Assembly: GCA_937125225.1 (NCBI GenBank)
Contig: CAKZLE010000011.1
Span: 1 to 47,642 of the forward strand
DNA length: 47,642 nucleotides
Direction of reading: 5' to 3'
From: an uncultured Spirochaetia bacterium
GTDB lineage: Bacteria; Spirochaetota; Spirochaetia; CAKZLE01
Under the pieces are notes generated by a model. That model made no database searches. It was not told the DNA's origin and worked only from the letters and a program-made list of their open reading frames with translations. The translations under genes and the position numbers were made by a program. Shown piece after piece: positions 19,122 through 22,230 of the stretch (within the stretch, counting starts at the first letter, position 1; each line of letters begins with the position of its first letter).

Positions 19122-19153
19122 AAAAAAAACGAGGACCCCGGTGATTGGGGTCC
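19122..19153 (-). terminator. Strong intrinsic terminator with no upstream gene
   Basis: On the minus strand GGACCCC (19147-19153) and GGGGTCC (19133-19139) form a 7-bp stem around a 7-base loop, followed by TCG and eight T's (19122-19129). It stops leftward transcription just before the hexokinase promoter. Confidence 0.85.
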
Positions 19154-19240
19154 CGTAGAAATGAGTAATGAGTAAATATGCTCCGTTAATCAGATCCAAT
19201 TAATATTAAGGGTCTTATTAACTATCTCTGCAACGCAACT
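19122..19240 (-). ncRNA. Candidate small RNA, minus strand, about 115 nt
   Basis: A promoter-like pair (-35 TAGACT at 19269-19274, 16-base spacer, -10 TATTAT at 19247-19252) points leftward and would start RNA near 19240. The transcript would end at the terminator 19122-19153. No ORF longer than 8 codons lies between. No gene to the right is on this strand, so the terminator has no other obvious client. No known RNA family recognised. This fills the gene-free stretch 19050-19495 together with the palindromes listed separately. Confidence 0.4.
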
Positions 19241-19438: not shown

Positions 19439-19467
19439 TTGACACACAAAATTCAAATACCTAGAAT
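19439..19467 (+). promoter_or_regulatory. Promoter of the oxoamine synthase gene
   Basis: Perfect -35 TTGACA (19439-19444), 17-base spacer, -10 TAGAAT (19462-19467). Its position rules out a longer reading frame beginning at 19376. Confidence 0.75.
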
Positions 19468-19495: not shown

Positions 19496-20704
19496 ATGGC
19501 AATACCAAGCCTTTTAAATAAATGTTACGCCTTCACAGAGGCAGAAGAGAGTAGACAATCAGGTGCTTATCCATTCTTCAGACCCATTGAAGGATTCTCA
19601 GGTTCGCATGTGATCATCGAAGGAAAGAGACTGTTCATGGCAGGATCGAACAACTATCTGGGATTGGCCGTCGATGACCGAGTAAAAAAGGCTGCAGCTC
19701 AAGCAGTTCTTGATTATGGTAGTAGCTGTTCAGGCTCTAGATTCATGAACGGATCACTTGATCTACATGAGAATCTAGAGAAGAGGATCGCAGCTTTCAC
19801 AAAGAAAGAGGCAGCACTCTGTTTCACAACAGGGTACCAGGCTAACCTCGGCGCTGTACAGGCACTCCTAGGTAGAGGAGATCATGTCTTCATCGATAAG
19901 AGTAGTCATGCTTCGATCTTTGATGGCCTGTTCCTTGCTACCGGTATGATGAAACAGGTGAACATGCATCGCTATGGACACTGTGACATGGAAGATCTTG
20001 AGAATAAACTGAAACGACTGCCACTAGAGACGAACAAGATCATCGTAACAGATGGAGTATTCAGTATGGAGGGGACAATTGCAGACCTCCCTACTTTGAG
20101 AACCCTTGCTGATAAGTATAATGCCGTTCTCTATCTTGATGAGGCCCACGCTTATGGAGTCATCGGAAAGACTGGAAGAGGAACAGAGGAACACTACAAT
20201 TATCAGGCTTCAGCAGATATCATCATGTGTACCTTCTCAAAATCCTTCGGATCAATCGGAGGTTTCATTGCAGGCTCATTTGAAGTGATAGATTTCATCA
20301 AACACTTCTCAAGACCCTTGATGTTCAGTGCGAGTATGCCACCGGCCAATATCGTTGCAGCTCAGACTGCTCTTGATATCGTAGAATCAGAACCTTTTAG
20401 AGTTCAGAGACTCCAGGAGGTCGCTGCCAAAATGATCAAAGGGTTCACTGATATCGGATTCAATATTGGACACACGCAGACTCCGATCATCCCGATCATC
20501 ATCGGTGACAATGAGCGTACCTTTGAGTTCTGGCACAGGCTCTTTGAAGAGAATATCTATGTCAATCCAGTCATCAGTCCAGCAGTACCACCTAATATGG
20601 CACTACTTAGGACCTCCTATATGGCTATACATAAGGATGAGGATCTTGATAAGTTTCTCAACATCGCTGAGCACCTAGGACGTAAACTCAAGCTGATACC
20701 ATAA
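19496..20704 (+). CDS. Alpha-oxoamine synthase family PLP enzyme
   Basis: The 402-residue fold-type I enzyme belongs with 8-amino-7-oxononanoate synthase (BioF), KBL and serine palmitoyltransferase, which condense an acyl-CoA with an amino acid. Landmarks are GSNNYLGLA, GSSCSGSRFMNG, TTGYQANLGA, DKSSHASIFDG with the PLP-stacking His138, DGVFSMEGTIADLP, LDEAHAYG (Asp215, His218) and the PLP lysine Lys249 in FSKSFGSIGG. The GYQANLGA/SHASIFDG context looks closer to serine palmitoyltransferase-like members than to KBL, but the substrate is not settled. AAGGAG is 9 bases before the ATG. No bio genes are adjacent, which argues against BioF. Confidence 0.82.
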   Translation: MAIPSLLNKCYAFTEAEESRQSGAYPFFRPIEGFSGSHVIIEGKRLFMAGSNNYLGLAVDDRVKKAAAQAVLDYGSSCSGSRFMNGSLDLHENLEKRIAAFTKKEAALCFTTGYQANLGAVQALLGRGDHVFIDKSSHASIFDGLFLATGMMKQVNMHRYGHCDMEDLENKLKRLPLETNKIIVTDGVFSMEGTIADLPTLRTLADKYNAVLYLDEAHAYGVIGKTGRGTEEHYNYQASADIIMCTFSKSFGSIGGFIAGSFEVIDFIKHFSRPLMFSASMPPANIVAAQTALDIVESEPFRVQRLQEVAAKMIKGFTDIGFNIGHTQTPIIPIIIGDNERTFEFWHRLFEENIYVNPVISPAVPPNMALLRTSYMAIHKDEDLDKFLNIAEHLGRKLKLIP

Positions 20705-20747
20705 CGATTGATTATTAGAAGATAATCATTAATTATCTCATCATTAA

Positions 20748-20777
20748 TTGACTACACGTATGAAAAATGTTTATATA
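20748..20777 (+). promoter_or_regulatory. Promoter of the candidate RNA upstream of 5-formyl-THF cyclo-ligase
   Basis: -35 TTGACT (20748-20753), 18-base spacer, -10 TATATA (20772-20777). TATACT at 20774-20779 is an alternative with a longer spacer. Confidence 0.5.
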
Positions 20778-20782
20778 CTATA

Positions 20783-20999
20783 TAGGTGTTACCACTATTT
20801 GATAAAAAGTATTTCACCTATTATTAAATTATTAATGAATGCATAGAGTTACTAGACCTTTAGTGTCCCCACAACACTTCTGGATCAGGTAACAACAAAG
20901 AAAGTGTATAACAAAAAGTAATTATACCTGTGTAACTTTCATGTATTTTCATGCTTTTTCTTTCCATTGACTACCCTGTTCAATCAGGGTAGTCTCTTT
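20783..20999 (+). ncRNA. Candidate structured RNA, about 215 nt, possible 6S RNA
   Basis: The 299-base gap 20705-21003 has no ORF but has a promoter at 20748-20777, an intrinsic terminator at 20969-20999 and stem-loops between them. Stem-loops: ATAGGTG (20782-20788)/CACCTAT (20815-20821); CTAGA + AGTGT (20852-20866) with ACACT + TCTGG (20874-20883); GAAAGT-GTATAA (20900-20911) with TTATAC...ACTTTC (20922-20940). The next gene is 5-formyl-THF cyclo-ligase; in many bacteria the 6S RNA gene (ssrS) sits just before this gene (ygfA/fau). Length fits 6S, but I could not draw the single long rod with central bubble typical of 6S, so the identification rests on context. A leader or attenuator for the cyclo-ligase is the alternative. 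Confidence 0.45.
20969..20999 (+). terminator. Terminator hairpin just before the 5-formyl-THF cyclo-ligase ATG
   Basis: GACTACCCTG (20969-20978) and CAGGGTAGTC (20985-20994) form a perfect 10-bp stem with a 6-base loop, followed by TCTTTATAT. It ends only a few bases before the ATG at 21004. The same bases include TTGACT (20967-20972) and TAGTCT (20990-20995) with 17 between, so they might also act as a weak promoter. Confidence 0.75.
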
Positions 21000-21003
21000 A
21001 TAT

Positions 21004-21585
21004 ATGAATAGGACCTCAGATAAACAGTTATTACGATTAGAGATCTCAAGACGTTTGGAAGGGTATTCCGAAGAGGATATCACCAGGCGAAGCAGCCAGG
21101 CAGTAGCTAGACTCATCAACTATCTTGAATCCACTACACTCCAGTTTAGCTCGATATTCTCATTTTTCTCAATGAGACGGGAGATCAGAACAATAGAGTT
21201 ACACTCTTGGGCTATGAAGAACAAGATTCCTATCGCCCTACCGAGGATCATAAAGAACAGCTCAGATATGACGTTTCACATCATAGATCCTTTTGATAGA
21301 GAACAACTCGAAAGACACCCCTTTGGCTTTTACCAACCGAAAGAATCTCTTATGTCAGCCCAGACCGAGAGTGCACTCATTCTAGTTCCTGGAATGGCAT
21401 TCAATACACGACATGAGAGGATGGGAAGAGGTGGAGGATTCTATGACCGACTACTCTCAAGAAGTGATCGAACAGCCTTGAGCATAGGTTTCTGTTTTGA
21501 GGAGCAGATTGTTACAGAGATCCCTACTGAATCACATGATAGACTAGTGGAACTTGTAGTGACACAGGAACATATCTATTCTTGA
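21004..21585 (+). CDS. 5-formyltetrahydrofolate cyclo-ligase
   Basis: Converts 5-formyl-THF to 5,10-methenyl-THF with ATP. The 193-residue protein has the family's SMRREIRTIEL segment, PFGFYQPKE, VPGMAF and the signature GRGGGFYDRLL (nucleotide/phosphate loop), then IGFCFEEQIV. There is no Shine-Dalgarno before the ATG; the start is preceded directly by the hairpin at 20969-20994. It lies at the same place relative to a candidate RNA as ygfA relative to 6S RNA in enterobacteria. Its end overlaps the convergent EIIA gene by 10 bases. Confidence 0.93.
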   Translation: MNRTSDKQLLRLEISRRLEGYSEEDITRRSSQAVARLINYLESTTLQFSSIFSFFSMRREIRTIELHSWAMKNKIPIALPRIIKNSSDMTFHIIDPFDREQLERHPFGFYQPKESLMSAQTESALILVPGMAFNTRHERMGRGGGFYDRLLSRSDRTALSIGFCFEEQIVTEIPTESHDRLVELVVTQEHIYS

Positions 21586-22177: not shown

Positions 22178-22207
22178 AAAAAAGGGTCAGTTCTATTGAA
22201 CTGACCC
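22178..22207 (-). terminator. Intrinsic terminator after nfnB
   Basis: On the minus strand GGGTCAGTTC (22198-22207) pairs with GAACTGACCC (22184-22193) around a 4-base loop, followed by six T's (22178-22183). Confidence 0.92.
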
Positions 22208-22230
22208 TGAAATCACATGATAAACCTTAA

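Follow-up and report, generated by a model that had tools for sequence, protein, structure and literature searches.

6S RNA folds as a long rod whose large central bubble imitates open promoter DNA; it binds to sigma-70 RNA polymerase and serves as the template for product RNAs, and its gene is usually present once per genome, sometimes twice. In other bacteria, ygfA follows 6S RNA within one transcript. RsaE/RoxS and LhrC are examples of small regulatory RNAs of another kind, in which C-rich loops are exposed. The 6S RNA gene (ssrS) adjoins ygfA, on its upstream side, in many bacteria (PMC4064990). The locus described here resembles the ssrS-ygfA arrangement in having an intergenic RNA of ~200 nt with its own putative promoter directly upstream of a cyclo-ligase gene (ygfA), the C-rich-loop small RNAs in a predicted promoter of its own, discrete length, intrinsic terminator, and exposed CCCC/CU-rich stretches, and the THF and THF-II riboswitches in that a structured, leader-like RNA with a terminator precedes a folate gene. 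It differs from 6S RNA (RF00013) in lacking any model match, in a predicted three-way junction instead of a rod, and in the presence of a true 6S RNA elsewhere in both genomes that carry it; from the C-rich-loop small RNAs in that neither a sequence relation nor a target was found; and from the THF riboswitches in that neither an Rfam match nor an antiterminator was found.

The window (the whole 47,642-nt stretch of DNA analyzed, from an uncultured Spirochaetia bacterium) holds this RNA in the intergenic stretch between the aminotransferase and cyclo-ligase genes (20705-21003), with the following features:

19496-20704, plus strand: upstream gene, a PLP-dependent aminotransferase of class I/II (oxoamine-synthase-like; PF00155, E 6.1e-59)
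20748-20776, plus strand: putative sigma-70-type promoter of the RNA, with hexamers, TGn, and spacer length common to the relative
20783-20820, plus strand: predicted 5′ hairpin of the RNA, not conserved in sequence, the 5′ hairpins of the relative being unrelated
20837-20948, plus strand: P1, predicted closing helix of a three-way junction, 13 of 13 pairs kept in both genomes
20857-20883, plus strand: P2, predicted hairpin with the invariant C-rich motif GTCCCCACAAC (20865-20875) and two compensatory pairs
20886-20930, plus strand: P3, predicted hairpin (CAGG.../...CCTG) around the invariant 21-nt purine-rich motif AAAGTGTATAACAAAAAGTAA (20901-20921)
20946-20968, plus strand: invariant pyrimidine-rich stretch TTTTCATGCTTTTTCTTTCCATT, identical in both genomes
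20969-20994, plus strand: intrinsic-terminator hairpin, a perfect 10-bp inverted repeat (GACTACCCTG-TTCAAT-CAGGGTAGTC, then TCTTTATAT)
21004-21585, plus strand: downstream gene, 5-formyltetrahydrofolate cyclo-ligase (PF01812, E 1.2e-32)

The neighbors named in the original prediction, an oxoamine synthase and a 5-formyl-THF cyclo-ligase, were borne out by the PF00155 and PF01812 matches, and its further description of a promoter followed by ~215 ORF-free bases with stem-loops also held. The putative promoter comprises TTGACT (20748-20753), a 17-nt spacer, and TTATAT (20771-20776) with a TG at 20768-20769, and the related genome shows the same arrangement, with identical hexamers, TGn, and equal spacer length (L003:1412-1440). 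A simple promoter scan left out TTGACT-17-TTATAT due to its weak -10 box. We infer a transcription start at ~20783, and no ORF of at least 50 a.a. was found inside 20783-20998 on either strand; one 56-a.a. mechanical ORF on the minus strand (20949-21119) overlaps the end of the RNA region. We also noted a near-consensus promoter, TTGACA-17-TAGAAT, preceding the aminotransferase gene (window 19439-19467), an arrangement seen in the relative as well (L003 about 75-104).

At the other end of the RNA, the 10-bp hairpin predicted to lie just before the cyclo-ligase gene is exact, and the start codon of the gene falls 10 nt past the stem. The U tract is weak and interrupted (TCTTTATAT), both arms are identical between the two genomes, and the pair probability is about 0.98 or more in each of the two RNAs. 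A search for an antiterminator, which is blind to ligand- or pseudoknot-driven switching, gave nothing convincing, the best pairing of the 5′ arm with anything upstream reaching -4.5 kcal/mol (-6.1 kcal/mol when the arm was extended) versus -17.2 kcal/mol for the hairpin itself; the lack of a strong competitor suits default termination. Two strong terminator-like hairpins on the minus strand (window 19132-19154 and 22183-22208) carry clear T runs, whereas the U tract at 20969-20994 is interrupted. The 9-mer ATTGACTAC occurs twice, at the -35 box of the RNA (window 20747-20755) and in the terminator 5′ arm (20966-20974), and TTGACT-17-TAGTCT in the terminator could act as a weak promoter, from which the cyclo-ligase mRNA would begin with almost no leader.

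When the full-length RNAs of the two genomes were folded separately, both were predicted to form P1 enclosing P2 and P3, plus the terminator, with P1 present in the MFE fold of each, while the consensus fold of the two RNAs contained P1, P2, and the terminator. P1 pairs 20837-20844 with 20941-20948 and 20848-20852 with 20932-20936, although in the window RNA its partner is ambiguous, given that GTAAC at 20889 offers GTTAC a second partner (0.6 versus 0.4). The two compensatory pairs of P2 (U-A/C-G and C-G/U-A) surround a loop that is the same in both genomes. P3 has a probability of 0.9 in the relative and about 0.3 in the window RNA, with AAAGTGTATAACAAAAAGTAA identical in both, and a possible 6-bp pseudoknot (20899-20904 with 20954-20959) is kept in both genomes, one pair changing from A-U to G-U. 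The RNA of the relative without its 5′ region prefers a different fold. The folding energy of the window RNA gave z = -4.0 with the terminator and -0.96 without it (-1.5 in the relative). Versions of the structure slid out of place were all far worse, with 37–54% of cells paired versus 100% in place. In the covariation analysis that had been proposed as a check, the compensatory changes in P2 are no more than suggestive of the modelled fold: the test, weak with two sequences only, was equaled by 113 of 500 shuffles.

The second copy of the RNA lies in a Spirochaetia MAG of a different genus, which is the sole other member of the family in the genome set. The RNA region shares 80–81% DNA identity with this relative over 178–182 bases (E about 1e-37 to 2e-39), and when 20640-21120 was used as the query, it aligned solely over 20826-21007, leaving both flanks, including the spacer 5′ of the RNA, unaligned. 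GTCCCCACAAC and AAAGTGTATAACAAAAAGTAA are the same in both genomes, as is, one loop base excepted, the whole run that starts with CATGTATTTTCATG and closes with the terminator. The neighborhood is syntenic throughout, with the orthologue of the aminotransferase at the same place (77% protein identity) and both known copies of the RNA preceding the cyclo-ligase gene, the protein of which is only 39% identical between the two genomes. The 6S RNAs of the same two genomes share 76% identity; the region thus matches 6S RNA in conservation, next to a cyclo-ligase at only 39%, which argues for a constraint like that on a housekeeping RNA. Our view that the element exceeds chance is based on this conservation, folding energy alone being weaker evidence, and judged from sequence the region is very probably a real, structured RNA gene.

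In a set that holds one genome of the genus and two of the family, and is thus thinly sampled, BLAST over 395 class genomes revealed no further members, other matches being short (E 0.001 or worse), and neither did a covariance model over 148 relatives (outside the family, E above 0.1 only). The surroundings of the cyclo-ligase gene in 28 class relatives contained no further copy, and the only Rfam matches there were three tRNAs. A DNA pattern of the two loop motifs matched the known relative and two unrelated organisms among genome contigs, and had no match among viral contigs. At gathering scores, no Rfam family matched anywhere in the window. With E up to 10, rli36 was rejected as a chance match (23.9 bits versus a cut-off of 50), as was a weak minus-strand match to uxuA RNA, which fell far short of its cut-off. 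A misplaced tmRNA, RNase P RNA, or SRP RNA was likewise rejected, as all three lie elsewhere in both genomes.

We lean, with some reserve, towards a lineage-restricted, independently transcribed non-coding RNA gene that ends before the cyclo-ligase gene, acts in trans, and leaves the cyclo-ligase to be expressed by read-through; in favor of this are a putative promoter of its own, the discrete length, and a terminator that no strong competitor opposes. RNA polymerase would start near 20783 and stop at the terminator (20969-20994), and the resulting RNA of ~215 nt would fold as a three-way junction (P1-P3) preceded by a 5′ hairpin. Once free, the RNA may act in trans, offering the invariant C-rich loop of P2, together with its purine-rich and pyrimidine-rich stretches, as candidate sites to which another RNA or a protein could bind, and the cyclo-ligase would be expressed via read-through, like ygfA downstream of 6S RNA elsewhere, without any relation to 6S RNA. 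The element does carry what marks a small RNA gene, in that it has a predicted promoter and terminator of its own and no coding frame. The complement of the pyrimidine stretch reads as an SD-plus-ATG-like sequence (GGAAAGAAAAAGCATG), and among the best 30 complementary sites with at most three mismatches, no target was common to both genomes. The place right before a metabolic gene speaks against a free small RNA, fitting a leader that acts in cis nearly as well.

Such a leader of the cyclo-ligase gene, the main alternative, would act in cis as either a new riboswitch or a protein-dependent attenuator, its junction core responding to a folate or one-carbon signal and thereby adjusting read-through at the terminator just ahead of the start codon; we regard it as possible rather than probable. 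We keep it in consideration because the start codon follows the terminator so closely, because the U tract is interrupted, and because neither arm of the terminator varies, as if the arms had a second role; the 3′ arm (AGGG) may also mask the ribosome site. Invariant loop motifs surrounding a junction would likewise suit a sensor, as would the position of both known copies before the cyclo-ligase gene, though the synteny of the whole neighborhood means that this shared position says little. The far weaker pairing of any upstream partner than of the terminator hairpin also weighs against a leader, as do the absence of an Rfam riboswitch match and the absence of the element before other genes and in the other genomes searched. 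That the element represents an undescribed class of riboswitch or regulatory RNA controlling the cyclo-ligase, with a pseudoknotted junction core formed from AAAGTGTATAACAAAAAGTAA and CTTTTTCTTTCC, seems to us unlikely.

We give very little credence to the idea that a short minus-strand protein accounts for the conservation. Read in reverse complement, 20950-20965 (GGAAAGAAAAAGCATG) does resemble a ribosome site plus start codon in the window and the relative alike (GGAAAG-AAAAAGC-ATG, then MKIH..Y.G..TFCYTL), but the frames, as read by eye, stop at different lengths (about 30 versus 22 codons), every codon difference in their common part alters the residue, which is unlike the differences in a coding gene, and the conservation continues through the terminator, beyond the frame.

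The original prediction of a divergent 6S RNA or another RNA fared differently in its two halves, with the second upheld by the conserved, structured RNA common to a second genome. As to the first, the single 6S RNA of this genome lies on another contig (G000:C26:76439-76620, equivalent to L034:6440-6621), which is among the findings that the prediction had said would count against it. It scores 47.8 bits against an Rfam cut-off of 46.4, so annotation pipelines could miss the gene, and its orthologue in the relative (L068:1496-1672, 73 bits) has the same gene order, which we take to be rpmI-rplT-zapA-like-6S-TPR protein from sequence recognition of the genes. A divergent or second 6S RNA acting on RNA polymerase from a place before ygfA, suggested by the length of ~215 nt and by a linkage that is real in many bacteria (PMC4064990) but fails here, is rejected as scarcely credible, since the 6S model had no match in 20600-21100 even at E up to 10, both RNAs are predicted as a multi-branch junction plus terminator without a long rod and central bubble (a misfit to the canonical rod that had already been recognized), and each of the two genomes has its 6S RNA elsewhere, adjoining zapA.

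On the sequence comparisons made here, the element is a structured RNA, new and of narrow distribution, that matches no known family, conserved like 6S RNA and yet found in one spirochaete family alone, at a spot that annotators habitually label 'ssrS'. Should it regulate in cis, the folate pathway would gain an RNA switch; if it acts in trans, it would be a new small RNA of uncultured spirochaetes.
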